DNA of 64,000 nt from Xiphydria camelus (Eukaryota > Arthropoda > Insecta > Hymenoptera > Xiphydriidae). The notes beneath the pieces are model-generated. The model was not told where the DNA came from. It saw nothing but the letters and a program-made list of their open reading frames with translations, and searched no databases. Positions 6,101 through 46,329 of this stretch are shown piece after piece. The stretch covers positions 20,698,674 through 20,762,673 of the forward strand of contig OY783192.1 of the NCBI GenBank assembly GCA_963678675.1, written 5' to 3'. The translations under genes and the position numbers were made by a program. Numbering within the stretch: the stretch's first letter is position 1; each line of letters opens with the position of its first letter.

Positions 6101-6604
6101 CACGTGCAAGTTGGAACCAAAGTGGGGGAGGTCATCGAGATGGCACTGCGAGCGAAGTGGGGGTCCGCCAGATGGCGTTGCGAGCGATGTCGAGATGGCG
6201 CTGCGAGTGAGGTGGAGGTCTGCCAGATGGTGTTACGAGCGAGACCTGGGGAGTGGGGGTTCGACCAATGGCGGAGCTCTTTTGGGGTGAAATTCAAAAT
6301 GGCTGCCACCGACGGTGGCGACACCTGGCGGGGGTTGGGGAGTATGGGTTCGACCAATGGGTGGAGCTCCGTGGGTGGGGGTTCAACCAATGGTGGAACT
6401 CCGTGGGTGGGGGTTCGACCAATGGCGGAGCTCTGTTGGGGTAAAATTCAAAATGGTTGCCACCGACGGTGGCGACACCTGGTGGGGCTTGGGGAGTGGG
6501 GGCTCGACCAATGGCAGAGCTCCGTTGGGTCACGTGGTGCGCGAATTCATATTTCTCGCCATCTTGCCCCTGAAAGTAGGCAACCCGTTCGGATTGATGT
6601 GCTA
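6101..6604. repeat. G-rich tandem repeats (GGGTTCGACCAATGGCGGAGCTC family)
   Basis: The motif TTCGACCAATGGCGGAGCTC or close variants occurs five times (about 6260, 6350, 6382, 6414, 6505). It alternates with two copies of a longer unit beginning AAATTCAAAATGG at about 6291 and 6444 (153 bases apart). Runs of four or more G on the + strand are frequent. An initial block (6135-6245) repeats AGATGGCG.TGCGAG. The ORFs through it are low complexity and differ between frames, so I do not call a gene. Confidence 0.75.
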
Positions 6605-8249: not shown

Positions 8250-8521
8250 TGTAGGGCCCGAGAACGTTGGCGCGTAGCCGGGTGAGCGCGCGCGGGATGC
8301 GGACGAGAAAGTGCGGGAGAGCGAGCGACGGAAATCGGCAACAGCGCGCGAGTCGCGGCGAGGTAGTCGCGGTAGTGGGAGTGATCGAGAGAGTCGACGC
8401 GAGGCGTGAGATCGAGGCGGAGGTATCCGCCAAAGCTGCGACGACGCGAGTTTTCATGCGATCGAAATAGATACGTTTTCCATATCAATCTTGTGTCTCT
8501 CTTCATCTGTCCCATCCTACA
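8250..8521 (+). repeat. 5' LTR (272 bp)
   Basis: Begins TGTAGGGCCCGAG and ends CCCATCCTACA. It matches the right LTR except for about 57 bases (roughly 8303-8360) that are absent from the right copy and a few substitutions. The primer site begins 5 bases beyond its end. Confidence 0.93.
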
Positions 8522-8526
8522 AACTT

Positions 8527-8544
8527 TGGGGGCTCGTCCGGGAT
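8527..8544 (+). promoter_or_regulatory. Primer-binding site, tRNA-Pro
   Basis: TGGGGGCTCGTCCGGGAT is the exact 18-base complement of a tRNA-Pro 3' end. It is the same sequence that primes murine leukaemia-type retroviruses. It lies just downstream of the 5' LTR and gives the direction of reverse transcription. Confidence 0.9.
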
Positions 8545-8688
8545 GGGATACTGAGAGACCGCGAGTGCTGTGCGAAGTGAAAAGGACGAAATACGGGCAA
8601 ACGAAGAACATGGCGGCTAGACGAACCGCGTGTTGACTTCGTGCGCGAACGACGCCAACGACGAACGACGCCAACGACGAACAACCCG

Positions 8689-9960
8689 ATGAAAATAATA
8701 AAGATTTCGGAGAGTGACGTGTACGCCATGACGGTGATGCAGTTGAGGGACATTTTGAAGATGAACGGACTCAGTCTGTCCGGAAACAAAGCCGAGCTGA
8801 TCGAACGAATTGTGACCGCGGATCCAGCTATCGAGTGGTGCGGTGAAGCTGGCAGAGAGGATAACGCGTGCAGCGGAGGAACTTTAGACGAAAGTGGCGC
8901 CGCTATGGCGGTGTCCGGTGAACGCGAGATCGCGTTGTACAAACGTGAGAAAGAATTAGCCGAGCGGGAATTCGAGTTGGCACGTCGCGAGATCGAGATA
9001 CTTCGTAGAGCGCAGCGGTAGACCGACAGCAGCTCCCGGCCGCCTGATGGCAACAGTGACGACGACGTTACCGACAGAGAAGACGAGAACCGACGCCGTG
9101 CACGTAACGAACGAGCAGACGCACGCGGCGCGATCGGCGGCGCGTCCGTAACGACGAAAATAAACATTTCAACGATCGCAGATCTTCTCAGCCATTTCGA
9201 CGGAAATTCCGAAGTATTCGAGACGTGGGAACGACAGGTGATGTTTCTGAGAGACGCGTACCTACTCGACAACGACACGACGAAGATTTTAATTGGGATG
9301 CGACTCAAGGGGAAGGCAAAAGAATGGTTCCATTCCAAACCGGAATACATCGCAATGTCCCCCAACGACGTTTTGGCCGAGCTACGGAATATGTTTTACC
9401 ATCGACCAAATAAAATCACAATGCGACGACGATTCGAGGAGCGTGTTTGGAAGAGGGCGGAGACTTTTCACGACTACATCCATGACAAAAGGATTCTCGC
9501 GAATCACCTCATAATGGACGACGACGAAGTGCTAAGCTACATCATCGACGGTATTCCAGACAATCAGCTGCGCGACGTGGCACGCCTGCAGGGCTTCAGA
9601 TCGTGCCAATCTCTTCTACAGGCGTTCGAAGAAATTTCGCTGCGCGACCGAAATTACACGACGAATTCCAGTACGGAAACGGACGAGAAGACCGGTGGTG
9701 CTAAGTATAAGAGCGATAAGATTGCGAGCGCGAAAAGTGAGTCCGCTGAAAAAAGCGTTTCGGACGAAAAGGGCGTGTCGGGCGAGAAAAAAGATAGCGT
9801 AACGAAGCGATGTTTTAATTGTGGCCACCGTGATCATATCAGCGCGAATTGTCCGACGAAAGATCAGGGTACGAAGTGTTTCGGGTGCGGCGAACACGGG
9901 CATATCGCCGCGAAATGTCAGAAAAAGAAAGACGCGACGAAAAATAGCTGCGCGCGATAA
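8689..9960 (+). pseudogene. gag: gag polyprotein with N-terminal SAP motif, one internal stop
   Basis: ATG 8689 opens a frame whose residues about 12-42 match a SAP nucleic-acid-binding helix pair (M-T-V-M-Q-L-R-D-I-L-K then L-S-G-N-K-A-E-L-I-E-R-I). A charged coiled coil follows up to a TAG at 9019-9021. The same frame then continues without a shift through a capsid-like region (I-A-D-L-L-S-H-F-D-G to 9700) to two CCHC zinc knuckles, from Cys codons at 9811 and 9877, and stops at 9960. The TAG is therefore a single nonsense change in an otherwise continuous gag. A SAP motif at the gag N-terminus is unusual and could aid binding to nucleic acid or chromatin. Confidence 0.85.
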
Positions 9961-24838: not shown

Positions 24839-25627
24839 AGCTACAAAATAAACGCACCTATCGTCCCATCAAATGATGCGCTACTGTACTAAGCAATTCG
24901 GTGCTAGGTACGATTTTCAACTCCTCCGCGAAATAATCGAACGTCTCGCCGCGACGCGTCGTCATGACAACGGACATCGTCGATGAACTTTCGATTCCTG
25001 GCATCGATTGGAAATTTTACGCATTATGTAAACTTGGCTTGGGATCGCACGCGCGGAAGAAAGTACACTCCAAAAGAGCTCACCTCTCCGACTAGAATGC
25101 TCCGACTTCTCGCATGCTCTGAGACGTTCCGCGAGACTCCCCCGGAACCGGTGTTTCGGACTGCACCTCCCAATGAATCGAATTATCCCACGAACTTCGT
25201 CGCGTACGAAAGAACCGATGTGTCCGGCGTGCTTCCGGATAAATTGATATAGTTTCTCTCGAAGCGATTTGAAATCGATTTTAATCGTCGACCGATTGCG
25301 TGCGCGCACGACCGTTCACCAGTGTAAGTAAGTACGGTATTATAACAGTTGAACACACTCCTCACCTGTTTTCATGGCCACACGAGATTGCGTCACACGA
25401 GATCGCGACACCGCCGTCTTTTGGCCTTGAACGAAAACTCATAACTTGACATATACGAACATAAACATTTCCAAAATATTAAAAATTAATTCAGTTTTCT
25501 CGAAAAGTGTTAATTTTAGTCCCGGGCTCCCCTAGTCCGGAAACTCTGAGGTCCAAAGTGACCCTCTTCGAGACCCAATTATGGAGCCTCTCGCACATTT
25601 GCACTCTTAAAGGATTATATGATTATA
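24839..25627. other. Helitron 5' flank or host sequence, no recognised gene
   Basis: Two overlapping ORFs (24983-25252 +, 24962-25309 -) lie here, but neither resembles a family I know. GTAAGTAAGT at about 25325 could be a splice donor. If the Helitron continues, its 5' TC end should lie in this stretch. I cannot place it. Confidence 0.4.
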
Positions 25628-26441
25628 CCGCATGTCCTATGGCCAACCGCGCAGGTGAGCTGCGACCTGAATTCTTGACTTCGGCAGTATTTATGGTACA
25701 GTTAGAGTGGGCTTCAGACGAGTGCACTGCATAAGAACGAAAAGTGTCGACTGCTCTTCTAATAGCTGTCAATTCGGGAGATCGAAGCGTTTCGTGTAAC
25801 CTCAAAATCGTAAAGTTTTGAATTAGTAGTGAATAATTTGTAGAAGTGATGAGAAATAATCATAAATAATCTTCCGAATTGACAGCCATCGGGAAATCAG
25901 ACGACGCTTTTCGCTCTTACGCTGCGTTCTTACGAAAAGTGTGAAACGTCTGATCTTCCGATGGCTATCAATTCGGGAGATCGAAGTATAAGCTCGAAAT
26001 CGTGAATCTTTGAATAAATGGTAAGTAATGTTCAGAAGTGAGAGTTAACAATCATTCGGGTTTTTTCGATGTCCAACCGAATTACACGCCTCATGCCTAT
26101 TTGTTTTAGAAATTATTTCCGCACTAGCACCGCGCGTGTCTAGGAAGTAGTTTTACGAAGTGGCGTGAGCGATACCTAAGGTGTCACAATTCGGAAGATT
26201 ATTTATGATTATTTCTCATCACTTCTACAAATTATTCACTACTAATTCAAAACTTTACGATTTTGAGGTTACACGAAACGCTTCGATCTCCCGAATTGAC
26301 AGCTATTAGAAGAGCAGTCGACACTTTTCGTTCTTATGCAGCGCACTCGTCTGAAAGCCCACTCTAACTGTACCATAAATACTGCCGAAGTCAAGAATTC
26401 AGGTCGGAGCTCACCTGCGCGGTTAGCCATAGGACATGCGG
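25628..26441. mobile_element. TA-flanked foldback MITE (family A, copy 2)
   Basis: TIRs begin CCGCATGTCCTATGGC and extend about 250 bases on each side (25628-25880 and 26196-26441). They are flanked by TA (25626-25627, 26442-26443). The middle contains a second smaller inverted repeat (about 25878-25985) built from the same TAGCTGTCAATTCGGGAGATCGAAG module, so one foldback seems nested in another. It shares its termini and that module with the MITE at 12188. Confidence 0.85.
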
Positions 26442-26450
26442 TATACCTAA

Positions 26451-27131: not shown

Positions 27132-27613
27132 CCAGGCGCGTGAAAGCATTATTTTGTCAATAGCTCTCTCCCGTGAAATTGTGATATCAAGGACGCATGC
27201 ATATTTTAGGGTCGAAAGCGGCAACAAGTTCCTTCGGTCGCGCTTGAAAAAGGAACGTTTCCGTTGAAGGTACCGAAGGTGAGCGAAGTACGTAATACGT
27301 ACGGGGTGGCGCAGAGATTTTTCAGCTGGTAACGGTCGCAGACTCGCGCGCGCTCCTTTGCCCGATGAACATTACGTTATATGTACCTACTATATACTAT
27401 AAACAGACGGTAATGGTAAAAGCGTGTCGCCCTGGGGTAGTATGGCACACACGCGCAGAGGCATACCCATAACGGTGCGCACGGTGTCTAAACGTGCCCC
27501 GATGGTACACATCTGGACGTACCTACAGCCTCGAAGCTGGAAGAGCGATGTTCGTCCCTCTTTCGCGCACGCGGTCGTTTAATGGTGGAACCGTGTCTAT
27601 TCACGCTTTCCTA
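27132..27613. other. Unique sequence left of the large inverted-repeat element
   Basis: About 480 bases of mixed composition with no supported ORF, RNA gene or repeat. It is the left flank of the 18.7-kb element and does not match the right flank beyond the TA. Confidence 0.5.
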
Positions 27614-29650
27614 GTCCAGTAAAATTTCCGTTTAAATCGAAAATTGACACATACGGGCGAAAACTTGGGAAAAGGTGTCTTTTGATGTTATTAATCGAGG
27701 GAACATATTAAAAGAAAAATCACCAACCGGGTACGGCTGTAAAAAATTATTTATTGTTGAAAAAATCGACTCTTCGCTAATATTTTGAAAACTACGTGAC
27801 ATATTGAAAAATAGTTAAGACAAAAGTTGTAGATAATAAAATTATCTACAAAAAAGCTATTACACTTTTTACCCTATCTTCAACGCCTAAGAAGCTAGGA
27901 CCTCCAGATGAGTTGAAATGTTCAAATATTCATAACAAATCCAAAAATTAAGATTTTTGCAATTTTTTTTTTGTAACCCGTTTAGAAGAATCTCATCATT
28001 TTTCCTAGCGAAACCAAATTTTGATTTTCATTGTTGTTTACACATGATTGATTTTTAAAGTTTTAAATACTTGAATTTACATAGAAATTTGCAATTAAAA
28101 AATTTTTTAATTATACCATCGTTTATTTTGGATTATTTCTTAAGAAAAAGCTAAATAGCAATTCAACGCATCTCACCTTGTTTGCAAGATATGCTAAATT
28201 GAAAAGGAAGGAGATTTATGCGATGATCACCACTGACTACGCAAACTGTGGCAAACATATATAGTGTCGCACCGCTCTCACTCACGTCGCCCTGACGTTT
28301 GTGTGCGCGCGCTGCTGCAGTTGGCTGCGAGTGTCAGTGAGACTGAGGGATGCTCTCGGCCTTCCCGACCTTGCAGGAGTTTCGTAGCATCCCGACCATG
28401 AATACCTCGCCAACCTAGTAGCCCCCAAGTAGTATGCATTATCTTATTTCCATTAGCGTATTTCCAGCGCCTCCTAGGTAAACGGTTCTACTTTTGGTTG
28501 ATCAACGAAATTGATTCAATTTCATTGAACAGTGCTTTCAGATACAAATTTTTGAAAATCGTGTCGCGCGCGCGTTCCAAGTGTCTGGAATTGGCGTACA
28601 TTGTATCACCAACGCTTCGATAGCGCAACGGTCAAATTGCCGGGCTGGGAGTTTCGATGTCGTGGGTTCAAATCTTGTTGTTTTTTTTCTTTTTTTCTTT
28701 ATCAACTCTTTTTTTCATTTCATTGCAATCACTTCTTGTTCTTAAAAAGTGGTTTACATTATCGAATAAAATAATAGTTTCAATGTTTTTCATAGTTTTA
28801 CATTATTTTCTTCCTTATTGAGGTGAACCAATATTATTTGTAAGAACAGTTGGAAACATCGTTGCATTTTTTTTACTCTTACATTTCGTCATTGGATTTT
28901 TTGGCTGCCGAAGATTTTGTTCATAATTTTGGATGATAATTGTCGAAAAAACATTTGAAGCACACTGTATTTTAACACCATGAGCATTTATTTTGACGAA
29001 TGGAACTTTGCCTCACGCACATTTACACTTTAAAAGCGTTATGGAAAAGCAAATTTCTTTGTTTCATTCAGTGTTTCAAATGTTTTTTGCCAACAATTCC
29101 CATAAAGAAATGTAAGAGCAAAAAAAATGCCAAATTTCGTAGGGGTTTCGTAGCATCGCGACCACGAATACCTCGCCAACCTAGTAGCCGAGGCAGTATG
29201 CATTATCTTATTTCCATTAATTTCTTACCAGCGCGTCCTAGATAAAAGGTAAGTAGGTATTATGAAAATTGTAGAGAGGATACAAGTTTTGTTTAAAACA
29301 TTTTTTTTTGGAAACAAATAATTGCAGGGTTGCGCTTCTGTAAACTGGAGCGCTTTTCTTACGCGTATAGGTACCCTTTTCACTCTCAACGTTGCTAATT
29401 ACTGATTCATTACCAGAAGTTATGTGTTTTTACCTGAAGCATAGAGAAATCAACAATTCGACAGCGTTAAATGTAGGAATATTATATTTATGGTAATTAG
29501 GAACAGAAGAAGAAAAGAAATTTTACATTCGGAAACAAACCACCAATGTCATTGGTAGTATAACGCTCCAGCTTGTTTTCTTATGGAAATATTTGAGATG
29601 AAGAATAAAAAATTATTTGGGCCTTTCCAATCGAAGTGGATCGCCTCCTA
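27614..29650 (+). repeat. Left terminal inverted repeat (~2.04 kb)
   Basis: It matches the reverse complement of 44085-46327. A 246-base block (29000-29245) is identical to 44694-44939. Within the arm, a module containing ATACCTCGCCAACCTAGTAG and TGCATTATCTTATTTCCATT occurs twice, about 765 bases apart (around 28400 and 29165). A third related module, CTCCTAGGTAAA..GGTTCTACTTTTGG, recurs at 28470 and 29650. Confidence 0.88.
28614..28690 (+). ncRNA. tRNA-like Pol III promoter unit in the left TIR
   Basis: TAGCGCAACGGT (28621-28632) resembles box A and GGGTTCAAATC (28664-28674) is a good box B, about 42 bases apart as in a tRNA gene. A T-run of nine or more (terminator) follows at 28680. The anticodon-loop position reads CTGGGAG, but the acceptor stem does not pair, so it is tRNA-derived and not a working tRNA. 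A copy is in the other TIR. Confidence 0.55.
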
Positions 29651-30561
29651 GGTAAAACTAGGTTCCGTAGGTTCTACTTTTGGATGATCAACGAAATTGA
29701 TTCAATTGCATTGAACAGTGCTTCCCCGTGAGGATAAACGTTCGCGTTGACTTGTGCATTCAATTCTATGTTCAGTTGCATAGATTCAATGTTGTTGATC
29801 AATGAATTTGACTAATGAGATTGACTAATTGTCCCACGGTAAACGGAACTCGGAAGACCGTTTCGTACCGCTTAAGTTTCTAAATCATAAATACCTCGCC
29901 ATCGGCGAATCCGCACGTTTCGGAAAAACGTGGACTGCGAATGCATCGAAGGGTTGATTAGTCGAACGCACAGCGTGACGTTTTTCGGCAAGGCGCGAGG
30001 TATGTTCCGACAGCGGTGCGATTACGCTCGGCGTACCGGGGAAGGGATTAGCCGGGGAAATCCGTCCACACCCAGTAAACAGAAATATTGTCTACCCGTC
30101 CAAAGACAAGGGGTTAATAAAGGAGCTTCTACCCTGATACGGCACATTAACGCATTAGGGAGAGGGGGCATGCAGCTGCGTGCGGGGTTTTGCCCGAAAC
30201 GGAGGTATTTCGTCGACTTCGTTCTCTGTGTCGAGAGGACGAAGCGGGATCCGGATTACGGGCATCTCCGGTCAATCCCTTGGTACCCAGGCGATTATAA
30301 CCGGTCCGATTGGGACGTACGAAGTCGATCCAACCGAGGGCTTGTTTACGACTCTGTTGATCGGCTATGTCGACTCAGTGGGGGTACGGCTTGATGGGGA
30401 CCGTCATAACGCCAAATTCTTCGCGAACCCGTTGATCTCATCGCCAGGCAAATCGACACGTTTCGGCGAAACATGGGCCGCGAATGCACTCGCGGTCCCG
30501 TACCTTCCCGATAATTACCGGACGATCAGAGCAAACCGTTTTCGGCGGTGCCTCACTGTAA
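29651..30561. other. Interior segment with a GC-rich unique island
   Basis: About 29890-30560 is markedly GC-richer than its surroundings. It contains two imperfect copies of an ATCG..GCACGTTTCGG.(A)AACATGG..GCGAATGCA motif, near 29905 and 30440. ORFs on + (29930-30394, 30180-30602) are not recognisable. It could be a captured host promoter or exon fragment, but this is speculation. Confidence 0.4.
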
Positions 30562-31314
30562 GGCCGGCATTATACTATAAAAGATCATTATTATATTTAT
30601 AAAATATATATTTTGACTAAAAATTTGACTGTGTAATGTAAAATGTAAAGTTCTTTTAGTAAAAGTAATAGGAAATTGCGACATTTTACAAAACTGCGAA
30701 ACAAGACGGGGCTGCGAGCTTATTAACAGCCTACATTCGCCGAACATACCGCTCGCCTCGCCATTGCGACCGATTGCGGGATTAACTCTAAATTTAATTA
30801 GCGCTTCGCTTAGATCGCGATGATTATGAACGGTAAAAACCAATATAGACGTCCGCTTAAGGTGCGATGGAACACTGCTATTATAAAAATTGAAAAATGT
30901 ACTTGTACTATTACATCGATACGTATGGGAATAACGTTCAACTATAACTGAAGAAGTAATGTGTTAACGCTGCATCCGAAGTATTCCTTCAGGATGCACT
31001 CTCGACTTTTGCAAATAATTCCGATGCATTTTAAGAACATTGAAGAAGTTTGCACTTATTTATTTGCCAAAGAAAAATCCACAGCAAATAAACTGCGTTT
31101 TAAGTTAATTACCCGTAATATCGGTTTCAATTTCAATGTATCCAAGGTTATTTGCACTTCGGACGCATCCATTTTTACTGATAATAGTGGTCAAACATTT
31201 GAAACAGTGGAATATATGTACTCAACTTCTTTAAAATAAATGTTATGAAATAAATTTTGTAAAAGATATGACAAAAGATCTTCGTCAAAGATCTTTTATA
31301 GTGCAATGCCGGCC
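30562..31314. mobile_element. MITE with GGCCGGCAT termini, TAA-flanked
   Basis: Left end GGCCGGCATTATACTATAAAAGATC pairs with right end GATCTTTTATAGTGCAATGCCGGCC. TAA lies on both sides (30559-30561, 31315-31317), a duplication typical of PIF/Harbinger-type elements. An internal ORF of 92 codons (30961-31239) is not recognised. Confidence 0.75.
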
Positions 31315-31343
31315 TAAAGCTCGCAACAGACTATGCATGTATT

Positions 31344-31753
31344 CGACGATTGACCGTCTCAAATTTTAATAATAATTTTTTTTAAATAACTACATTCACA
31401 GGCGTGTAGACAGGATTTCATCTAATTTAATTTCTTTTAAATCAACGGCTCGACATTTTTCAATGAAACGAAACATACAGTGTCGAAAAAGTATCAATGA
31501 ACACAGCAAAAAAATTAAATTAATTTTCCCTTTGGTTATCGAGAAATAATTAGTTAACATTATCGAGAGATAATTAATTCCATTTTTTGCTGTATTCATT
31601 GATACTTTCTCCACACTATCTTTTATTTCATTGAAAAATGTCGAGCCCTTGATTTCAAGGAAAATTAGAATACATGAAATCCTGTCTGAACACATGTACA
31701 TTTAATTATTTTAAAAAATTTATAATTATACTTTCAGACGGTCAATCGTCGTC
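31344..31753. mobile_element. Foldback MITE, CGACGATTGACCGTCT termini
   Basis: A near-complete palindrome of about 410 bases. The arms carry CAGGATTTCATCTAATT / GAAATCCTGTCT and a central TATCGAGARATAATTA pair. No ORF is supported. It lies 27 bases after the previous MITE. Confidence 0.75.
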
Positions 31754-31856
31754 GGGTTGTGCTTATTTCGTAGTTACTTTTTTGAACTATCTACCATATA
31801 CATTTAAAAAAATGTCGAAATGACCAGTTACACGACGACAACCTCAATAGCACATA

Positions 31857-32729
31857 CACGGAGAAAAAAAAAGTGAAAAATTCCCCTTTTTTATGGGTAA
31901 CGCTGCACCATTGTGATAATCAATCAGAAATTACCGTGAGATAGGTAAGAAATTATCAAAGGGCTGGAAAATTATTATTCTGAAAAAAGGGAATTATCGG
32001 TGAATTTTCAAACTCCCAGCAAAATAAAATAAAAACTACGCAGCAGTATAATAGTAGCTCTACTGTTTATGGTGAACATACATTCTTCTGCACTGGATTT
32101 TTTCCCTTTTTAGTGGAGAAAATCTTCACCGTCAAGTGTGCTAATGTTACATTGGGTCTTATAGACCAATCAGGATCAAGTATACCGTTGTCCGTAACCC
32201 CATCACAACGGAATCTTAAACAAGATTTGTCGCTAAGGGATTAAACAAGATACTAAAAAGAAGACGTTGCTAAGAGATGTAAACACGGGGAGAGGAGTAT
32301 GGGACATTATTTTTCGTGTGAGAAAATTCATTTCGTCGACGAGATCTATCTTGGAAGGGATTTTCGAATCGTTAACGAAAGTGATAGAGGAAGCTACATC
32401 TGTTAACGAATTACTTTCCGTCCACGAAAAACATTTCTCACGCGTCGAGAATATAGCCTCCCTGACCAATTTGAATCCTTATTGATATTCTTTTTATTGA
32501 GAAATAAATAAATTTATGATTTGTCGTTTTTAGCAAGAAAAATTTACATTTACATGGGTTAAATTTTACTAGTTTATTCATCAAAAATTACTTTTCGATT
32601 TTGATGAAAAAATCTCATTCCAAAAGGGGACAAATTCTACCGTTTGTCCATTCGGTGCATAGTTAGTCAGAAAAATGACACTTTTTCCTCACCTTCTAGG
32701 TTAGAAGTTCTCTTTTTTTTCTCTCCGTG
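31857..32729. mobile_element. TA-flanked MITE with CACGGAGAAAAAA termini (family C, copy 1)
   Basis: TIRs CACGGAGAAAAAAA / TTTTTTTCTCTCCGTG are flanked by TA on both sides (31855-31856, 32730-32731). The interior has overlapping short ORFs on both strands (32233-32485) without recognisable motifs. It shares terminal design with 61718-63658. Confidence 0.72.
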
Positions 32730-33139
32730 TACCCGATTGTTCTGCAATGATATTGAATATCTATGGGCAGCCAACAATATATTGTACAATCATTTTTGCG
32801 CAATAATATTGCACGTCTATTTACCGCTTTAAGGCCGAGACAGACATGGCCGCACCGCGCCCGCAGCGACTGTTGGCCGTGTGTCGGTCAACTGTCGGTG
32901 ACGGCGACGCGAAAAGCCGGTGCCCACATAGCCGCGCCGCGCCCGCACCGTGTTTTTGGCCGTGTATTGGAGGTGCGTCGTACGTACACAACGAAACAGA
33001 ACCGACTAGTCCCTACCTAACCACGCCGACAGCACCGCACCGAGCCCGCACCGTGCCTGACTAGTTTCGTTTACTTTTTGACGGGCGCGGTGCGGTCTCG
33101 AGAGTTAACTTTCGAGTGCAAAGGGTTAATAAAATAATT

Positions 33140-33765
33140 AAATCTATATTTTTATTTTTATAAATGAAATAATCAATTAATTACACTTTTTACATACATA
33201 TATGACTGGTTTCTCTTTCATGCATTTTCCGCAGACAAATTTTTTACAAATTATGCAAGTTTGAGTGGTTTTATTATCCGTGTACCTACAATCTTATTTG
33301 GCATTTCCTTCGTGATTGGGAATTATTGCTTGGGCTGCTTGATGTTCCTTCTTGTAGGTTTTCCTTTTCTTCTTCAAGGAATTCGTAATACTGTGACGAG
33401 TTCATCTGCAATTATCTGCACTTCAATTATTAAAATATTTACACAGTTTTCTAAATTTATTCCTGGAATTTTTTAATTCAAGTTAACTTTAAAACCAATT
33501 ATTTCAGACTTACCAAAAATTCACTTAAACCCTTTTACTTCCAGGCCCCTCAATTGTAACGGGAAACGCTGTCTTGGTATCTTTATTCCAGTTGTTGCCT
33601 GATGGAGTATCCATGCATTGATTTCAGCGAAATCCAGGTTATTGAAAAATACGTGTACAGGCCATCTATTGCATTTTGATTTCACGCTATATTTTCGCGC
33701 CATTTGGTGAACCATATCGACGCGAAATTTAGTCTTATTATAATAACTAATTGTTTCGGGTATTA
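33140..33765 (-). pseudogene. piggyBac transposase C-terminal fragment (left arm)
   Basis: The minus strand encodes the conserved piggyBac block D-M-V-H-Q-M-A-R-K-Y then R-W-P-V-H-V-F-F-N-N-L-D and A-E-I-N-A-W-I-L-H, at about 33715-33600. Downstream comes a Cys-rich tail (T-C-I-I-C-K / C-G-K-C) near 33260-33190, the usual RING-like end. Frameshifts and missing N-terminal catalytic parts make it inactive. Confidence 0.78.
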
Positions 33766-34543
33766 GCTTTCTATTATTTTTGGTTTTTATGCATTTATGT
33801 TTTTAAAACTCAGTATCGTAACTTTTTTTGTGAACTGTAAATAAAATGAGATCATTTATTTTATGGCATTATATTATACATACGTTAAATTGTACATACT
33901 TACTTAGATCCGGGAAAGTTCCTCATTGTCACGGGGTCGAGGAGCGACCAGTACGTTCGAAAACCTCCGAGCGACCGGAACAGCTCGCAAATAAAGTTAA
34001 TGCATTGTTTGTTTTCCCTTACAAATTGGTGAAATTGTATTCATTCTAAACCCACCACACAAGATTAATTTGGCGCGTATAGTCCGTCGCGCAAAGACGG
34101 AACATTGTTTATTAGAATAGGTATTGCGGGAAACGGCTTATTTCGATCCGTCCGTTAATTAATTATTTCCGGAAAAGGGGTACGACGGAACATAGACTCT
34201 AGTCTTTATGACCGTCCCGTCGTTTGACAGAAAGGATCGGAAGCGACGAACCCCGTCCGCGACGGCCCCTGCTACATATGGTCCCTGCCGGGCCGTATCT
34301 TGCCGGGCCGTAGTACAGTTGTTTGAGTGTGTGTATGTACTAGCTATGCTCCCCAAACCCCGGGGGGGTAAGTACCTGGCTCCGCGCATCGGGTCCCAAG
34401 ATCGCCGGGGGTCTTGGCGACACGGTTTTGTCCACGCATTTATGAAAACATTATTTTATATAATACAATATAATATATAGTAATAAAAAGGAGAAGGAAA
34501 GGATTTGATCCAGTCAGTATTTTGACGGGCCGAGCTATAACAC

Positions 34544-35122
34544 CCGAAACAATTAGTTATTATAATAAGACTAAATTTGGCGTCGATATGGTTCACCAAA
34601 TGGCGCGAAAATATAGCGTGAAATCAAAATGCAATAGATGGCCTGTACACGTATTTTTCAATATCCTGGATTTCGCTGAAATCAATGCATAGATACTCCA
34701 TCAGGCAACAACTGGAATAAAGATACCAAGGCAGCGTTTCCTGTTACAATTGAGGGGCCTGGAAGTAAAAGGGTTTAAGTGCATTTTTGGTCGGTCTGAA
34801 ATAATTGACTGTAAAGTTAACTTGAATTAAAAATTCCGCAATAAGTTTAGAAAATTGTGTAAATATTTTAATAATTGAAGTGTAGATAATTGCAGATGGA
34901 CTCGTCACAGAGTATTACGAATTCCTTGAAGAAGAAAAAGAAAACCTTCAACAAGGAACATCAAGCAGCCCAAGCAATAATTCCCAATCACGAAGAAAAT
35001 GCTAAATAAGATTGTAGATATACGGATAATAAAACCACTAAAACTTGCATAATTTGTAAAAAATTTGTCTGCGGAAAATGCATGAAAGAGAAACCAGTCA
35101 TAATATGTAAAAATTGTAATTA
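34544..35122 (+). pseudogene. piggyBac transposase C-terminal fragment (right arm)
   Basis: Mirror copy of the left-arm fragment. Y-N-K-T-K-F-G-V-D-M-V-H leads into R-W-P-V-H-V-F-F, with TAG at an expected Trp in N-A-W (about 34690). The Cys-rich tail ends at the TAA near 35122. It has diverged slightly from the left arm. No catalytic Asp region is present. Confidence 0.78.
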
Positions 35123-35598
35123 ATTGATTATTTAATTTATAAACATAAAAATATGTTTGATTATTTTATTAGAAATAAGAAATTATATTGAGAATTATTT
35201 CCTTTAATGAATTAAGAATTTTTTTCTAAAAATCAACATTTATTTCATAAGAATATGTATGGAAGCTCTTATAGGAAGAACAGATTGAAACTTCGTAGAG
35301 CCGACCGTGCCCGTCAAAAAGTAAAACGGCGCGGTGCGGGCTCGGTGCGGTGGTGTCGGCGCGGTGTCGTTGCGGTTAAGTGGGGACTAGGCGGTTCTAT
35401 TCCGTTCTGTAACTTTCTCACCGTGTGATGGCCAACACTCGGTGCGGGCGCGGCGCGGGTGCGGTGCGGCTATGTCTGTCTAGGCCTTTACCAAAGTTCC
35501 CAGCGTTACCTTCTCCTCCGTCGACGTTCCTTCCCCTCCCACAATCAGGGTGCACCCACGCTATCCCCTCCGTCGACTAAATGCCGCGAAATTTTCGG

Positions 35599-35856
35599 TA
35601 TATAAGGTGAAACCAAGCACTTTGTCGACAATGCACTGTCAAACTTGTCATGTACAAAACTGCGACTCTGCAACTTCGACCGTATTGCTACTAGTCTTGT
35701 GAGTGAAGTGTACAGTTCATTTCAACAACTCGTGGCCGATAGCTTCAAATCTACCTTGTGGAGGACCCCGAGGAGATCCTACAAACTTGATCGCGCGGCG
35801 CCCGATCAATTTACATACATCATTTACATCCATCATCAATAGCATTCATTGTTAAG
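35599..35856 (+). promoter_or_regulatory. Possible TATA promoter and 5'-UTR exon of the PIN/CXC gene
   Basis: TATATAAGG at 35599 is a good TATA box. It is followed by about 220 bases lacking a proper ATG ORF and then AAG|GTAAGT, a consensus splice donor at 35857. The matching acceptor would be TTTCAG at 39032-39037, fifteen bases before the gene's ATG. If so the leader intron is about 3.2 kb and holds several MITEs. Entirely inferred from signals. Confidence 0.35.
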
Positions 35857-37010
35857 GTAAGTGTAATTGCAGTACTGTCTTTTAATGTTAAGATTGTCAT
35901 GTAAATGTCTCAGAATTTTCTGTTTCGTTGTTTATAACATTCGGTAAATGCATGAATGCTAATTCAAAGAATAAGCGGGTTCGAATATCGGAGACTTTAA
36001 AGTTATCGTTCTTTACTTTTGAAAGTTTTTGTTATTTCATAGCTGATATATTATATATTATAAAAATGTTGTAAATGAACACATAACTAAGTCTATAACA
36101 AAATCACCCGGGGGTGAGATGCCGCAGGACGGACACTCCGCTCTATAGAATCACAAACTACAAAAGACGTGATTTCTAGCGCAATCCACAGATAACCTCA
36201 TTTCATATGATTATTTCGATTCAATAGACCGTATAACGGAAAGAATTCAGATATATTTTGAGTCTATACATAAGTAAGCTCTTAGTATATTTTTAAATTG
36301 AAATATTGATTTAAACAAAATTTCTCGTAAAAAAACCTCAAACTAAAATATTGTTTACTGATTAGTAAGGAGAAAACAATTTAGTACATGTGTAATATAT
36401 GTACATATAATTCGAAATTACATCCATTTGAAGGTATTATTTCATGAAGTGACGTAGAAAGTTCGTTTTAATACTTATCGCTCTCGTGATTTATTGCGGG
36501 TTGAATATTTCCTTTTTCCAACAGTTTCCTTAATGTTTATGCAGGTTTAATGAGCTTTGTTTCATATCGCGCTCTCTAACTCTAGACGCGTTTCATATAG
36601 CGTGTCATAACTCTAGACGAGCTGTACTTAGATCGCGATGATAATAATAAACGATAAGAACCGTTACAGACGTCCGCTTAACGTACGACGGAACATTACC
36701 TGACTGAATTTATCATTGGTTTTAACACTTCCGTGTGTCGATACAATGCGAGTCGATATAAATGTAACAGTAGGGCAGAGTGTTATTCAGATGAAGATTA
36801 TTCTTCTTCGCAATTTGCTACATGCTCTACATTGCAAATAAATTTTTTATTGGTCAAGGAAACATCGTCAAGATTTTTTATTGGTCAAGGAACAGTCATA
36901 GAACTAAAGTTGTTCAGTTTTGTACGACGAATATGAATCATTAAAAAAATGGGGGTTCCTATTTAAAAAATCCGTCCCGTTCTCGTATGGCGCTGAAAAC
37001 AAAAATAAAT
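35857..37010. other. AT-rich interior sequence, no gene seen
   Basis: No recognisable ORF. A segment at 36610-36710 (TTAGATCGCGATGAT...CAGACGTCCGCTTAA) is a diverged copy of 30800-30865, so a dispersed repeat is present. Confidence 0.5.
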
Positions 37011-37406
37011 ACGTGTGTGTATAATAACATATAATATAAAACAGTTTTTATAGAAAAATTGTTAGATGTGAAACATCGAAATTCTTCTTTGTAGAAAGTA
37101 TGCGATAGGGAGGAACACGTACGCCAGTGCGCATTTGTATTTATGACTGTGATACTATTAAACAGTACCGATGGTAGAGTTAAGAGAGAGTAAACTAAAT
37201 GCGCTTTTTGAATTAGACACAACGGTTCGTACCGTTTAATAGTCACAGTCATAAATACAAATGCGCTCTGGCGCACGTGTTCTTTCGACGGACGCGTGGT
37301 CCATCCTTCCTATCGCATACTTTCTACAAAGAAGAATTTCGATGTTTCACATCTAACAATTTTTCTATAAAAACTGTTTTATATTATATGTTATTATACA
37401 CACACG
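37011..37406. mobile_element. TA-flanked foldback MITE (family D, copy 1)
   Basis: A 396-bp palindrome beginning CGTGTGTGTATAATAACA and ending with its complement, flanked by TA (37009-37010, 37407-37408). Arms of about 190 bases include CATTTGTATTTATGACTGTGA. Confidence 0.83.
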
Positions 37407-37753
37407 TATTTTGATCTACAACAAAGTATCTTACATCGATGTGGGCCTAAACTTCATAGATAATAAGATAATGGCGATTAAATTTCCTTTCCTGGTGAAT
37501 AAGTTTAGCCTCATATGTTTCTTTGACTTATCAAATATCTATTTATAATCGTGATGTATTATAGATTGTACACACATACGTACCATATGAGGCTAAACTT
37601 ACTTGCCAGTTTTAAACGAGAGTATTCTCGAATCAAGAATATATATTCTTCGACTAAGAATTTCTATTCTGTTTTTCTCAACCGAGATTCTAGACTAACT
37701 CTCGCTAGATTGTTCTCAATGCTGTGTCCACTTGAGTAAATCTAGCTGAAAAC

Positions 37754-37980
37754 GAAAGAACACGTTCGCCAGTGCGCATTTGTATTTATAATTGTGATAC
37801 TATTAAACGGTACAAACCGTTGTGTCTAATTCAAAAAGCGCATTTAGTTTACTCTTTCTTAACTCTGCCATCAGTCGCTGCTCCGTCTCGCGATAAACGG
37901 AATTCGACACAACGGTTCGTACTGTTTAATGGTATCACAGTCATAAATACAAATGTGCACTGGGGCGCACGTATTCTTTC
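37754..37980. mobile_element. Foldback MITE (family D, copy 2, core only)
   Basis: Inverted arms GAAAGAACACGTTCGCC..CGCATTTGTATTTATAATTGTGA and the complement match the inner half of the 37011-37406 element. The outer terminal part is missing. Confidence 0.72.
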
Positions 37981-38495
37981 AACGGATGCGTGGTCCATCC
38001 TTCCTTCTTTTTCTTTCTTTCAAATGCTTATTTTTCAAAATATTGACGTTTATCAATTTAAATGATTCACCCTGTACATATGTCATATCTTCCTGAGAAA
38101 CGAATCTTTATTGCTACTTACTATGAAATATTCCGATAGTACATACATATAAGATCAAAGAATATGAATGATAAAATAGAGTACATAGATATTTACTTAC
38201 TTTATAGGCGAAGTTTCTCTCTCTAACGGCATATATCGAACTTTCAATACATAACCATACGAAACCATAACATCATATTTTAATTATTGTTACAAATATT
38301 AGAAATATAAAATCAGTTCGGGTCCAAGTGGATCGGAAAGACATGAATGTTAAACATTAGACTGATTTAAAAATAAGCTTTTTCCATTACATCTTTGGGC
38401 GGGCATTTTCAACGTTAGTATTTAATGTAACAATGAATATGTCGCCGGGTGCATATTCTCAGTCAATATTTATGGGTGTCTCAATCGCTTTGTTA

Positions 38496-38865
38496 GATTT
38501 CCATTTGAATAATACGGTGAGATTGTTAAATCATTGGTTTAGTGCTAATTCCTTCTACGGTAAAAAAATGTCCCCGTGAAAAATTAGAGAAATGGAGAGT
38601 TGTAGGTGTCATTGACGTAAAGAAATATTATTTTTAATTATTAAATAAAATTAAATGATAAGCACAGGGGAATCAATTGCACAATTTATTCCCCCATCAT
38701 TATCATTTCATTTCATTAAATAATGAAAAATAATAAATCTTTACGTCAATTACACGTAAAACTCTCAATTTTTCTAATCTTTCACGGGGACATTTCTTTA
38801 CCGTAGAAGGAAGTAGCACTACACCAACGATTCAACAATTTCACCGTGTTATTCAAATGGAAATC
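38496..38865. mobile_element. Foldback MITE (family E)
   Basis: A 370-bp palindrome. GATTTCCATTTGAATAA at the left pairs with the complement at 38849-38865, and the arms include CTTCTACGGTAAA and GTCCCCGTGAAA. Centre near 38680. No ORF. Confidence 0.8.
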
Positions 38866-39051
38866 ATACATACATATTTTTGGTTCGACATCGTAAATAC
38901 GTTGAATAAAAAAAATTAGTGATTTTTGGGGTTCCTCCAGTTTGCTTCGCTCAGGCATTTTGCCCCATACTCCAAAGAAAAGCCACATTAACAACGAACT
39001 AACGATTTCATAAGTTTTGTTTCAAATTTGGTTTCAGTTTGGTAGCACAAA

Positions 39052-42000
39052 ATGGAGGTAGATAAGCTATGTACAATTTGTGGCAAACGTTTCGAAATTG
39101 AATCAAACGTAACTTGCGTGCAAATGAAAGGATTGCAATCATTAATAAAAAAAAGTAAGGAAAATGAAGATGGGAAGTGGACGTTGTGGGAAGACAAATC
39201 TTCGATTAAATTTCACATGAACTGTAGAAAGCATTACGCAAAAGCAAAAGTTATTTGCAAAGTATCAACAGACGTTACATCAGAGTTCACCGAGGAGTCA
39301 CCAGCGCAATCGAGTTCAAGCGGCAGTGATTTTAATTTTAAAGATTTGTGTTTCTTCTGCGGCAGTGCATTAGATCGTATGCATAAACGAGTGTGCTTAG
39401 TTACGAATAATGACAGTCAAATTAACATTATTGATACTGCAAGCAGACGAGATGACGATCTAGGAAAGACAGTAATGACTCGGCTATCTGGAGTTTCACT
39501 TGCCGCTGTAAAAGCCTCGTAAAAAAGTGCAGGACTTCTTTCATGCTCTTTTACGAACCCGAAACGCGTATAACTGATGAATTCGCAGACGAATGTTTCA
39601 AAAATATAACGCAGTACATTACAGAAAGTGGAGAATTTAAATTTGCCATGTCTGAAATACGAAACATTATCAGCGCAGACATACTTAGTGATCATGTATT
39701 ATTCAAAAAGTTGAAGGAGAAGTTCGGTGAAGATGTTATTATTGAACGAAATCGTGGTAAAGAGACAATTATTTATTATAAAGTTTTCGATTTATTACCA
39801 ACTCTCAGTGATTGGTATTGCAATCCTAACTCCTTGGATAACCATGTGAAAAAGACATTAGTGACTGTCGCAGCAGAGATTCTTCGAGCCGAAATTGTGA
39901 ACTCTACCTATAGTACTGAAGAATATCCATCACCGAATCAGTTTGTCGATAATGTTGCGTCCGATATTCCAGATTTATTGAGGAGCTTTCTTAATGATTT
40001 GTTGCTCGGGAAAAACGGAAAGGAAGAAGTTCATTCAAAGCGGGACCTTATCGCGCATCTCATTATTTCTATACTACAACCGCATGGCTTCATCTCCACA
40101 TTATTGCTGGCAACTGGTGTTTATATATACAGAAAATCTGGGTCGCGTTTGATTATCGATATTTTATCACAATTGGGCGCATGTGCAAGTTATTATCAAA
40201 TTAAACTGTATGAGGCGTCGGTAATCATGCATCCTCCGACAACGAAGATTGTTGAGGCTTTCGTTCAATACGTATTTGACAACACAGACCACAATGTCAA
40301 CACTTTAGATGGCAAGGAAACATTTCATTGTTTAGGCGGTATAGCTGTTCATACTCCAGACTATGCAGTTTCAAGTGAAGGTGGATCTATGAAGTTAAAG
40401 AGAATGCCATCTGCGTCACAGATTGCAGCTCAAAGAAGAATATCAACAATACCTTGCGGAAAAATGGATCTTGACGTTATGAAAAATGTTGAGTTTATTT
40501 CGACAAAAAAAATGAAGCTCGGAAAGCCACCAGTAGCACCAACAGCGTATATGACATACTTATTAGCAAAAGACTTGGAAATTTGTAACGTTCCATCGTG
40601 GAAAGGTTTCATGGAGATGTTAACAAGTAATGACCTCGATTACTCTGTATCAAATATCACCTGCTTACCCTTCATTAATGAGCCACCCTCAAGCTTATCA
40701 GCGCTTAATACCGCTGTACGATACGCTGCTGATGAAACTCGAAAACTGGAGCAAAAAACTTGTTTCCTTACGTACGATCAGCCTCTCTATTGGAAAACTC
40801 GTTCACTAATTGAATACTCCATTGCTACCGATGGTGACTTGAATAATGTTGTAGTGCTGCTAGGAATTTTTCACGCTCTGATGTCGTATGTGGGTAGTAT
40901 GTGTTATACAATGGCGGATTCTGGGTTGGAAGATCTTTGGTCAGTAGTGTATGCTCCAGACTCTGTTAAAAAGATGTTCACCGGTCACGCGTTCTCGAGA
41001 AACATACGAGCAAATATGTTAACGTATACTTCGCTTGGAATAATGATTTTGAGAACTATGGACATACCTAACGAAGTGAAAGAATGTATCCAAAAATTGT
41101 TCGAAGATCAAGCTTCAGAGATTCCTTCATTAGGAGATTGTAATATTACTGTAATGAAAGAGATAGCTGCTGCATTTGAACAGAAGCTTACCGAGCTAGA
41201 GAATGTTGGTCCGACTGCAAAACTATGGGTACAGTACTTTCGATGCATCACAGTTGTTTTACAAGTTATACAAGCAGAGCGCCTAGGAGATTGGCCACTT
41301 CATCTCCAAAGTATTCAACAAATGCTGCCACTGTTCCATGCAGCCGGTCACTATGCTTACGCAAAGAGTGCCCAAGTTTACCTGCAAGACATGGTCAATT
41401 TAGAGATGACAATGGACGAGGAGGAGTATAAGAAGTTCACAAAAGAAGGATTTTTTACAATTCGCAGATCGGACAAAGCGTGGAGTGGTATTTGGCGTGA
41501 CATGGTTATAGAACAAACGTTAAACCGTTTCTTTGGGACTGATTTAAAGCACGGTAGAGGGGTTACTCCTAGTGTTGTCTCACGGTACTTGCTGTCGATG
41601 CCTTCAGTGTTCAAGGTTATGGAGCGTTTGGAAGATTATATTGGCGTAACATCTGCTACCAGTGAGCAACATGTTGATTGCTCAAAAAGTCGAATACATA
41701 GAGACGATGAAGATGTAAAAAAAATGTTGTTTTGGTTCTCTCAGCATAATCCATTTCAACCTCGGAGTTCGTTGGTTTCTCTCTCAACAGGGATAATTGG
41801 AGGACCACGAATTAATTGTCATCAAGCTATTGAGATCGGACTGCGAGCCATGGAAGCAATGGTAGGCAAAAATGTCGCCAATACTTCACTGTCTGCAATT
41901 CATAAAGTAAAAACTTTAGCGACTGCGAAGAGTGGATTACACGTCAACGACGATGAATTTGTCACGTTAGACACTTATCTCTTATTTCAAAGAATTGCAG

Positions 42001-43611
42001 TTCTTTTTAATGGCAACACTGATTTAACGCGTCGTGCTTTATCGTACGAACTCTCACCTTTTCCCTTAAGTTTGTTCGACGAAAAAGGCTTGATGAGGAA
42101 ATCTGCTAAGTCGGAATTGTATAAAGGATTTAAGTCCTTCCTACACAGTGAATCGCTCTTACGCAGCTTCGTGTACGTTATCGATGGGGGGTGGCTACTT
42201 CATCAGATCAATTGGCCTCACGGAAAAAGTTATGGGGAAATCTTCGAAATATATCGTTCATTTATTGTTAAACGTTTCGGACCAAATGCGTTCGTAGTGT
42301 TCGATGGATACAGTAATGAGATCATTGGCGTTAAATCGTATGAAAGGTACCGTAGACAAGAGAGATGTGTTGCAGCGGATGTTGATATCGCCGAAGACAT
42401 GATGCTGAATGTGACTCAAACCAAATTCCTTTCAAATGTTGCGAATAAGTTCAAGTTCGTTCAACTACTATCCAATTACTTACAACGAAATGGGATTAGA
42501 AGCAAAATTGCACAGGAAGATGCTGACTCGCTAATAGCGTTCAGACAGCAATAGAACTGAAGATTAACACACGAGCATCCATCGCAGTGGCTGGAAATGA
42601 TGTTGATTTATTCATCTTGCTCATTGGATTGATCCCTGATGGAGAGGAAATTTTCTTCTTAAAAATTGCACCCGGGAAGAGGTCGGATGTTTTGTACTCT
42701 ACAACATCTCATACCGCACTGAAGCCTTTTATTTTATTCGCACACGCGTTTGCCGGCTGTGACTCAACCAGTGCGATTTATAGGAAAGGAAAGAAAAGTA
42801 TTTTCAAAATACTAGAGAAGAATCCAGCTCTGCAGAAATCTGTATCTATTTTTTATCATCCCAATCAAAGAATAGATGATTTATATCCCATTGCTGAGGA
42901 AATTATCCAGCACTTGTATTCAACAAATGATCGCGACAAGGAACCTATTAATGAAATGCGATACAAGCTTTTTGTATCACTTGTTACCACCGCCAAGAAG
43001 GAAATGTCACTGGCTTCATTACCACCAACTCCATCTGCACTTCGTGAACATACCAAGAGGGTGTATTACCAAGTGCAAACATGGCAAGGACAAGCTTTGA
43101 ACGCTGAGGATTGGGGATGGAGGAGAACGAACATAATGCTCCTTCCAGTGATGCAACGCGCAGAATTAGCTCCGAAAGAGTTGCTCGAAAAGGTAATTAA
43201 TTTGTATGGCTCCTACAAAGAAATGAATAATTTTTTTGCCTTCATTTATCTTCATGTCATCAAAGAGAAATAGTTCAACACATATACTATCCAATAATTT
43301 CCCACCGTTTTTCATGAAAATTGTATAATCGAATGTTTTCTTATTTTCAGATCTTCTGTGGTTGTAAAGGTGACTGTGCCACAAGTAGATGTTGTTGCAA
43401 AAGAAGTGGCCTTAATTGCACTGAAGTGTGTAAGAATTGCAACGGTCAAACGTGCAAAAATTCAACGCTGGATAATCCTGAAGACACAGATTCAGAAGAT
43501 GAAGAAATGCAACCGAATGTTGAAGAAGATGTAGAAATGTTTGCGGAAACTGGTGGAAATGGAAGTGATAACGATGTTGATTTTATGGCAGTCGATGGTG
43601 AGTATTACTAA
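39052..43611 (+). pseudogene. PIN-nuclease-like plus CXC-domain protein gene of the 18.7-kb element
   Basis: ATG 39052 follows a splice-acceptor-like TTTCAG. Frame 1 (to 39522) has zinc-ligand pairs C-T-I-C-G-K-R-F and H-M-N-C-R-K-H-Y, then F-C-G-S. A small indel near 39521-39529 moves to the long frame 39543-42554 (1003 aa), mostly unrecognised. Its end shows I-D-G-G-W-L-L-H, V-V-F-D-G-Y-S and D-A-D-S-L-I. A second indel near 42535-42542 leads to G-N-D-V-D-L-F-I-L-L and A-F-A-G-C-D-S-T. Together these resemble the acidic motifs of FEN/XPG-type PIN nucleases. A GT..AG intron (43195-43350) joins in phase to a tesmin/TSO1-like cluster C-G-C-K-G-D-C...C-C-C-K-R-S-G-L-N-C. The two frameshifts may mean decay or sequence error. 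Nuclease or transposase activity is an inference. Confidence 0.75.
43195..43350 (+). other. Predicted phase-0 intron before the CXC exon
   Basis: AAG|GTAATT at 43195 and TTATTTTCAG at 43350 splice L-L-E-K directly to I-F-C-G-C-K. Without splicing, the frame stops at 43271 before the cysteine cluster. Upstream pyrimidines support the acceptor. Confidence 0.7.
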
Positions 43612-43629
43612 TGTTATGTATGAAACAAA

Positions 43630-44010
43630 AATTAATATTCCAGTACTTCTTCCACATGTCGGATGAGTAATCCGGGAAAAGGTAGGATGTTTTATACTAT
43701 ACATCATCTGAAGCCATTTATTTTATTCGCGCACGTGTTTGCCGGATGTGACTCAATCAGTGCGATTTATAGAAAAAGGGAGGAAAAGTGTTTTCAGAGT
43801 ACTAGAGAAGAATCCAGCTCTGCAGAAATATGTATCTATTTCTAATCATCCCAATCAAACAATTGATGGTTTATATGTCCCATTAATGAGGAAATTATCC
43901 AGCACTTGTATTCAAGAAATGAAGATGTAGAAATGATGTTTGCGGAAACTGGTGGAAATGGAAGTGATGACGATGTTGATTTTATGGAAGTCTATTGTGA
44001 GTAGGTATTT
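43630..44010 (+). pseudogene. Partial tandem duplicate of the PIN/CXC gene 3' part
   Basis: This stretch repeats, in order but shortened, 42695-42930 (K-P-F-I-L-F-A-H-V-F-A-G-C-D-S-I) and then 43525-43600 (A-E-T-G-G-N-G-S-D-D-D-V-D-F-M). The intervening region and CXC cluster are deleted, and frames are broken. Confidence 0.85.
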
Positions 44011-44084
44011 CTAATGTTATATATCTAAAGACAAGTAATATTCCAGTAATTCTTCCAGAAATATTCCGATGTCGGATGAGTAAT

Positions 44085-46327
44085 CCATGTCGATCAACTT
44101 CGATTGGAGACGATCAAATTTTTCATTTTTAACATTAAATATTTCCATTGAAGAACAAGCTGAAGCGTTATACTACCAATGAAATTGGTGGTTTTCTTCC
44201 GATTGTAAAATTCCTTTTTTTTGTTCCTAATTACCATAAATATAATATTGCAACATTTAACACTGTCGAATTGTCGATTTCTCTATGCTTTAGTTAAAAA
44301 TACATAATTTCTGCTTCAAATATCTCATTTTCAAATTTCACGCTTTGCAACTATTTCATTTAGAATTAAAATCGAACAAAACAATACGAACTAATTTGGA
44401 AAATTGCACACTAGAACGTCAGTTGTGGAATAGGCCTACTGGGGAAACCACAATAAAAAAAACGCGCCGTTTACTCTACCTCGTGGTGGTGTGGAAACGA
44501 GTACCTACAATATTGATGATGACAACATAATGAATCAGTAATTAGCAACGTTGAGAGTGAAAAGGGTACCTATACGCGTAAGAAAAGCGCTCCAGTTTAC
44601 TGAAGCGCAACCCTGCAATTATTTGTTTCAGAAAAAAATGTTTTAAACAAAACTTGTATCCTCTCTACAATTTTCATAATACCTACTTACCTTTTACCTA
44701 GGACGCGCTGGTAAGAAATTAATGGAAATAAGATAATGCATACTGCCTCGGCTACTAGGTTGGCGAGGTATTCGTGGTCGCGATGCTACGAAACCCCTAC
44801 GAAATTTGGCATTTTTTTTACTCTTACATTTCTTTATGGGAATTGTTGGCAAAAAACATTTGAAACACTGAATGAAACAAAGAAATTTGCTTTTCCATAA
44901 CGCTTTTAAAGTGTAAATGTGCGTGAGGCAAAGTTCCATTCGTCAAAATAAATGCTCATGGTGTTAAAATACAGTGTGCTTCAAATGTTTTTTCGACAAT
45001 TATCATCCAAAATTATGAACAAAATCTTCGGCAGTCAAAAAATCCAATGACGAAATGTAAGAGTAAAAAAAATGCAACGATGTTTCCAACTGTTCTTACA
45101 AATAATATTGGTTCACCTCAATAAGGAAGAAAATAATGTAAAACTATGAAAAACATTGAAACTATTATTTTATTCGGTAATGTAAACCACTTTTTAATAA
45201 CAAGAAGTGATTGCAATGAAATGAAAAAAAGAGTTGATAAAGAAAAAAAGAAAAAAAAACAACAAGATTTGAACCCACGACATCGAGACTCCCAGCCCGG
45301 CAACTTGACCGTTGCGCTATCGAAGCGTTAGTGATACAATGTACGCCAATTCCAGACACTTGGAACGCGCGCGCGACACGATTTTCAAAAATTTGTTTCT
45401 GAAAGCACTGTTCAATGAAATTGAATCAATTTCGTTGATCAACCAAAAGTAGAACCGTTTACCTAGGAGGCGCTGGAAATACGCTAATGGAAATAAGATA
45501 ATGCATACTGCTTGGGGGCTACTAGGTTGGCGAGGTATTCATGGTCGGGATGCTACGAAACCCCTGCAAGGTCGGGAAGGCCGAGAGCATCCCTCAGTCT
45601 CACTGACACTCGCAGCCAACTGCAGCAGCGCGCGCACACAAATGTCAGGGCGACGTGAGTGAGAGCGGTGCGACACTATATATGTTTGCCACAGTTTGCG
45701 TAGTCAGTGGTGATCATCGCATAAATCTCCTTCCTTTTCAATTTAGCATATCTTGCAAACCAGGTGAGATGCGTTGAATTGCTATTTAGCTTTTTCTTAA
45801 GAAATAATCCAAAATAAACGATGGTATAATTAAAAAATTGTTTAATTGCAAATTTCTATGTAAATTCAAGTATTTAAAACTTTAAAAATCAATCATGTGT
45901 AAACAACAATGAAAATCAAAATTTGGTTTCGCTAGGAAAAATGATGAGATTCTTCTAAACGGGTTACAAAAAAAAAAATTGCAAAAATCTTAATTTTTGG
46001 ATTTGTTATGAGTATTTGAACATTTCAACTCATCTGGAGGTCCTAGCTTCTTAGGCGTTGAAGATAGGGTAAAAAGTGTAATAGCTTTTTTGTAGATAAT
46101 TTTATTATCTACAACTTTTGTTTTAACTATTTTTCAATATGTCACGTAGTTTTCAAAATATTAGCGAAGAATCGATTTTTTCAACAATAAATAATTTTTT
46201 ACAGCCGTACCCGGTTGGTGATTTTTCTTTTAATATGTTCCCTCGATTAATAACATCAAAACACACCTTTTCCCAAGTTTTCGCCCGTATGTGTCAATTT
46301 TCGATTTAAACGGAAATTTTACTGGAC
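44085..46327 (-). repeat. Right terminal inverted repeat (~2.24 kb)
   Basis: Reverse complement of the left TIR. An extra 200 bases or so (about 44310-44530) interrupt the match near its inner end. It carries its own copy of the tRNA-like unit (about 45255-45325, minus strand) and of the subterminal direct repeats. Confidence 0.88.
45250..45325 (-). ncRNA. tRNA-like Pol III promoter unit in the right TIR
   Basis: Mirror of the left-arm unit, with box A-like TAGCGCAACGGT and box B GGGTTCAAATC on the minus strand followed by a long T-run. It differs by a few bases from the left copy (for example CAAGTT versus CAAATT). Confidence 0.55.
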
Positions 46328-46329
46328 TA

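Follow-up and report, generated by a model that had tools for sequence, protein, structure and literature searches.

A probable Academ-type DNA transposon with long inverted repeats, a DDE transposase, a flap-type nuclease and a CXC cluster in Xiphydria camelus

Here we examined a 64,000-nucleotide stretch of the genome of the hymenopteran Xiphydria camelus (GenBank assembly GCA_963678675.1, contig OY783192.1, positions 20,698,674 to 20,762,673 of the forward strand; hereafter the window), in which two long inverted repeats enclose a multi-domain gene. We conclude, with a probability of about 0.87, that this is an Academ-type cut-and-paste DNA transposon with long terminal inverted repeats (TIRs), belonging to the AcademX lineage, to which we liken it by published description only. 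A first-pass annotation made from the sequence alone had held that the element matches no superfamily. We found no support for this, because a DDE transposase is present and the target-site duplication (TSD) is 3-4 bp; once these two features are corrected, the element fits AcademX as described in the excerpted text of PMC10045372. It is the family that looks new, its kind (Academ) being already known. The features of the element are collected in Table 1.

Table 1. Features of the transposon in the window (positions are those of the window; P0003 is a homologous protein from Harmonia)
Feature	Position	Strand	Basis
Whole transposon	27612..46329	.	Inverted-repeat limits; position of TA from outer duplications of other copies and unfilled sites
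Left TIR, tip TAGTCCAGTAAAATTTCC	27612..29643	+	Two matched blocks with right TIR; tip found genome-wide
N-terminal gene part, zinc-ligand motifs	39052..39522	+	Aligns to P0003 residues 1-167
Main open frame, 1,032 residues: DDE domain and start of nuclease	39456..42554	+	Aligns to P0003 164-1179 at 54%
Proposed catalytic D1 (VFDNTDHN)	40278..40280	+	Asp in 32/32 non-gap rows; first core strand of predicted model
Proposed catalytic D2 (TYDQPLY)	40776..40778	+	Asp in 35/35 rows; immediately past strand 207-211 of predicted model
Proposed catalytic E (DMVIEQTLNR)	41511..41513	+	Glu in 32/32 non-gap rows; in helix 452-464 of predicted model
EXO1/FEN1/XPG-like nuclease domain, across two frames in window copy	42102..43192	+	
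Probable GT-AG intron, 158 bp, ahead of CXC exon	43193..43350	+	Ends read; homology gap 43195-43357 against P0003 1398-1400
CXC zinc-cluster exon	43351..43611	+	Aligns to P0003 1400-1454
Partial second copy of nuclease region	43669..43947	+	tblastn matches to P0003 1224-1318 and P0009 1165-1252
Right TIR, same tip inverted	44091..46329	-	About 210 bp between the two matched blocks without partner in left TIR

Ends of the element and its genomic copies

The inverted repeats of about 2 kb with identical tips that had been noted initially are indeed present, at 27612-29614 and 44117-46329, the left and right ends pairing in two blocks, of 1,799 bp at 98.7% identity and of 230 bp at 83.9%. Counting in the terminal TA of either TIR, the whole transposon measures 18,718 bp. 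The element tips in the family read 5'-TAGTCCAG. The 18-mer tip TAGTCCAGTAAAATTTCC occurred exactly at 228 places in the 357-Mb, 38-contig genome, while its reversed control occurred at none, so the tip is not a product of chance. When the tip was searched without the TA there were 239 exact places, and 95% of exact tips have the TA.

For identification of paired copies we took the first 100 listed places of the GTCCAG tip, TA being required, and paired them by eye, which gave 28 inverted pairs 2-18.7 kb apart. Two of these (L016 and L025) were removed before TSDs were counted, since at least one tip of each is part of another repeat, copies of which have the same outer flank. The 26 pairs kept comprise the window copy, 21 whole copies and four long ones represented as two overlapping pieces. 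Since the tip pattern demanded TA, pairs with one TA-less tip fall outside this set; there are at least four such pairs among the 239 listed tips, L051 being the one that was read.

Eighteen paired copies aligned to the window element have its ends in common at 77-98% identity. These aligned copies and the many genomic places of the tips bear out the proposal of a long-TIR DNA transposon that is mobile, and comparison of the genomic sequences thus shows the element to be multicopy and mobile. In tblastn searches with two full-length homologues the DDE part was found only in the window copy, the 25 other pairs returning either nothing or fragments of the nuclease/CXC end. These 25 paired copies are without the DDE part and are non-autonomous.

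We noted that the nuclease/CXC end of the gene is present twice, as a mirror image, in L011, L018, L020, L021, L027, L033/L034 and L038 (tblastn matches on both strands), and that L019, L022 and L024 are 91-94% palindromic. A recurrent fold-back origin of the mirror-image non-autonomous copies is possible. We also observed another repeat that has a GTCCAGTAAAATTTCC tip in constant position, with GCGTCCACTCCTAATA as its outer flank (one base differs in L047); it was seen in L001, L002, L008, L016, L025, L040 and L042-L048. Because the tip is fixed within this repeat and the flank is common, a number of unpaired tips are copies of it and not independent insertions.

Target-site duplication

The flanks directly outside the TA match in 21 of the 26 pairs, over 3 bp in 10 and over 4 bp in 11. 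When the flanks were re-paired 5,000 times as a control, the mean was 1.9 matching pairs and the maximum 8. The window copy itself has no target duplication (flanks TCC and CTT), nor do L011, L020, L033/L034 and L035/L036, which makes five of the 26 pairs. L013 and L022 have unfilled paralogous sites, to which their flanks align when joined and in which exactly one 3-bp or 4-bp copy is missing; the unfilled paralogous site for L015 fits nearly as exactly, and for L039 spanning matches were found, with a junction too diverged for reading. A sister element with the tip TAGTCCAGTAAACGAAGG (L049) lies inside a repeat, and at this filled site TTG flanks the outer side of each TA of TA...TA, whereas the host repeat at nine other places has a single TTG and no TA (ten loci, L001 and L040 being the same place). 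The right tip of L051 has CA for TA, yet TTAT is duplicated outside it.

These observations, namely duplications of 3-4 bp outside the TA, unfilled sites, L049 and L051, indicate that the TA is part of the TIR. The duplications and the unfilled sites rule out the TA as the target duplication, as the first-pass annotation had it; the family duplicates 3-4 bp beyond it, and the window copy has no duplication at all. Neither is the TA target duplication of Tc1/mariner and other TA-duplicating elements seen, the gaps at unfilled sites being 3-4 bp outside the TIR. The sister element in L049 (about 3467-8976) has 83-bp perfect outer TIRs and a 2.2-kb inner palindrome that contains CXC-like pieces on both strands.

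Transposase domain and structure of the gene

The domain content of the gene was assigned by homology and structure prediction. The absence of DDE hallmarks, as initially reported, was not borne out. Residue conservation, counted in an alignment of 35 member proteins, reveals a D/D/E triad that lies within a predicted RNase-H fold, and the best structural matches of the model are DDE transposases (P element, the hAT transposase Hermes, Transib and RAG1), at 6-10% identity in the structural alignments. The conserved triad, the predicted fold and the structural matches together rule out a reading without DDE transposase. Between D2 and E the predicted fold has a helical insertion, as in these four systems, and the model suggests that the transposase is of the P/hAT/RAG/Transib structural class. 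Foldseek found no significant match when given only the DDE domain, sequence comparison of the main frame against solved structures was unproductive, and no Pfam transposase model matches the window protein.

The FEN/XPG-like motifs and the CXC cluster described earlier in the gene between the TIRs were confirmed. There is a single gene, as had been stated, and in the window copy it is in four pieces (three reading frames separated by two frame changes, followed by an intron and the CXC exon). Homology begins in frame 1 (39052-39522) and continues in frame 3 up to 42536 and then in frame 2 (42539-43195); as the protein alignment is ungapped across these, there are two frame changes. The window copy therefore has the full domain set but has probably lost the ability to make its own transposase; because of the two frame changes it is probably inactive, barring assembly errors. 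The frame of the N-terminal part contains two CxxC and one HxxC zinc-ligand motifs, the homologue consensus being two CxxC...HxxC sets, and eight cysteines of the CXC cluster are invariant in all 10 aligned homologue rows.

Classification and alternative readings

The nuclease of AcademX elements is of XPG type. According to the excerpted text of PMC10045372, TSDs are 3 or 4 bp in AcademX and 9 or 10 bp in AcademH, a difference tied to whether a nuclease or a helicase is encoded, and Academ is counted among the DDD/E superfamilies in that of PMC9587614. Our element resembles AcademX, so described, in its DDD/E transposase, in its nuclease (here EXO1/FEN1/XPG-like) and in a TSD of 3 or 4 bp, the last found in 21 of the 26 pairs and not in the window copy. 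In size the window copy, at 18.7 kb with TIRs of about 2 kb, departs from the mean of 5,565 bp given for curated bivalve Academ elements in the excerpt of PMC10294476. AcademH belongs to the same superfamily and differs, in the description above, by its helicase and 9-10-bp TSDs; the paired copies and unfilled sites here have 3-4 bp, and Pfam scans of the window frames and of the 35 members (E≤0.1) gave no helicase model.

TSDs are 8 bp for P and hAT elements and 5 bp for Transib, and we know of no FEN-like nuclease in the P element, hAT, Transib or RAG1. Common to these four and our element is the predicted DDE fold with its insertion; the 8-bp TSD of P and hAT is not seen, 21 of 26 pairs having 3-4 bp and the unfilled sites 3-4-bp gaps. 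The KDZ elements (Zisupton, Dileera, Kyakuja) are likewise DNA transposons with a DDE-type transposase, and some of them have CxC clusters. Their TSDs, given in the excerpt of PMC12730594 as 8 bp (Zisupton-1_PGr, a Dileera) and 7 bp (Kyakuja), differ from the 3-4 bp found here.

It is also conceivable, though we consider it unlikely, that the lineage combining DDE domain, FEN-like nuclease and CXC cluster is a superfamily of its own that is AcademX-like only in build and duplication length. AcademX was compared by its published description, and no homologue name among the matches listed, most of which are nameless, says transposon. Pfam DUF6589 (PF20231), a family of unknown function, is precomputed for the relatives P0043, P0046 and P0054, and we did not find it named in the literature searched on these transposons; at E≤0.1 it was detected in 7 of the 35 members, with a best E of 1.6e-4, and the window protein falls far short of the cut-off (E 0.12; 11.4 bits, the cut-off being 27). 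Against such a superfamily, the nuclease together with the 3-4-bp TSD accords with what the excerpt of PMC10045372 says of AcademX. We hold a further proposal to be equally doubtful, in which the lineage has superfamily rank beside AcademX and its flap nuclease takes part in a recurrent fold-back step by which right-half copies become giant palindromic non-autonomous elements.

The original proposal, a new superfamily driven by a FEN/XPG-like nuclease, without DDE transposase and with a TA duplication, can draw on a nuclease domain that is real and on a window protein that no Pfam transposase model matches, but the conserved triad with its predicted fold and structural matches and the placement of the TA within the TIR, 3-4 bp beyond it being duplicated, make it very improbable. 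Least credible of all is a local segmental inversion, in which two inverted repeats would flank a gene by accident: the window copy does lack a target duplication, but a tip found 239 times genome-wide and 26 inverted pairs at different places, 21 of them with duplications, rule this out, and paralogous unfilled sites likewise speak against it. We thus retain the Academ-type assignment.

Homologues and other copies of the gene

For the main frame, 7,997 candidates were scored and 42 of them are homologues at E≤0.001, those with names being insect proteins and one hagfish protein; among the matches listed no name mentions a transposon, most rows being nameless and the others 'uncharacterized protein'. 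One member has a PIN_4 Pfam match (E 9.3e-4). P0019 (Trichogramma kaykai), an NCBI model of 1,597 residues, combines the transposase with a Monjiviricetes fusion glycoprotein domain, precomputed as PF24664; a scan of the 35 members matched this domain in one of them (E 1.5e-187). Either the gene model is a fusion or a viral gene has been captured.

When the genome was searched in six frames, at least 45 matches to the gene were obtained, including the window, at 44 places (one frame on C10 holds two of the rows); this count is a lower bound, 44 of 1,273 candidates having been scored. Matches besides the window show 32-65% identity, and 19 of the 45 have an open frame of at least 1,100 residues with no stop within the match (the short row at C10:18106485 excluded). 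The expectation in the first-pass annotation that every gene copy would be flanked by GTCCAG tips fails as worded, since no tip pair encloses any of the 17 other gene places on C1, C6 and C10, where exact tips are listed in full. In L053, 597-bp TIRs at 99% identity with the tip TGATAACGGAAG surround an uninterrupted frame of 1,498 residues, with no clear target duplication; L054 has no TIR within 8 kb. The L053 tip has 51 occurrences, and three of the 10 inverted pairs listed bracket gene matches (one on C21 and two on C28, including L053). Where ends are visible, to judge by these loci, the gene and TIRs occur together, with another tip.

Possible mechanism and significance

In a mechanism consistent with this domain content, the zinc-ligand and CXC parts would bind the TIRs, the DDE centre would cut outside the terminal TA, insertion would proceed with a 3-4-bp stagger, and the nuclease may trim flaps or open branched or hairpin ends from excision and insertion. 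The analysis removes a false new superfamily and provides a worked case of an Academ-type lineage in many insects whose proteins are nameless or 'uncharacterized protein' among the matches listed. Membership of the P/hAT/RAG/Transib class, as suggested by the model, is testable, and a genome with at least 45 gene matches, 19 in open frames of at least 1,100 residues, is a convenient system for the role of a flap nuclease in transposition.

Other repeats in the window

Nested inverted repeats are present inside the transposon at 33201-35102 of the window (296 bp at 96%, 195 bp at 95% and 82 bp at 90% identity), which may represent a second insertion, itself palindromic. A compact inverted repeat (169 bp at 99% and 91 bp at 98%) lies at 25624-26445, about 1.2 kb beyond the left end.
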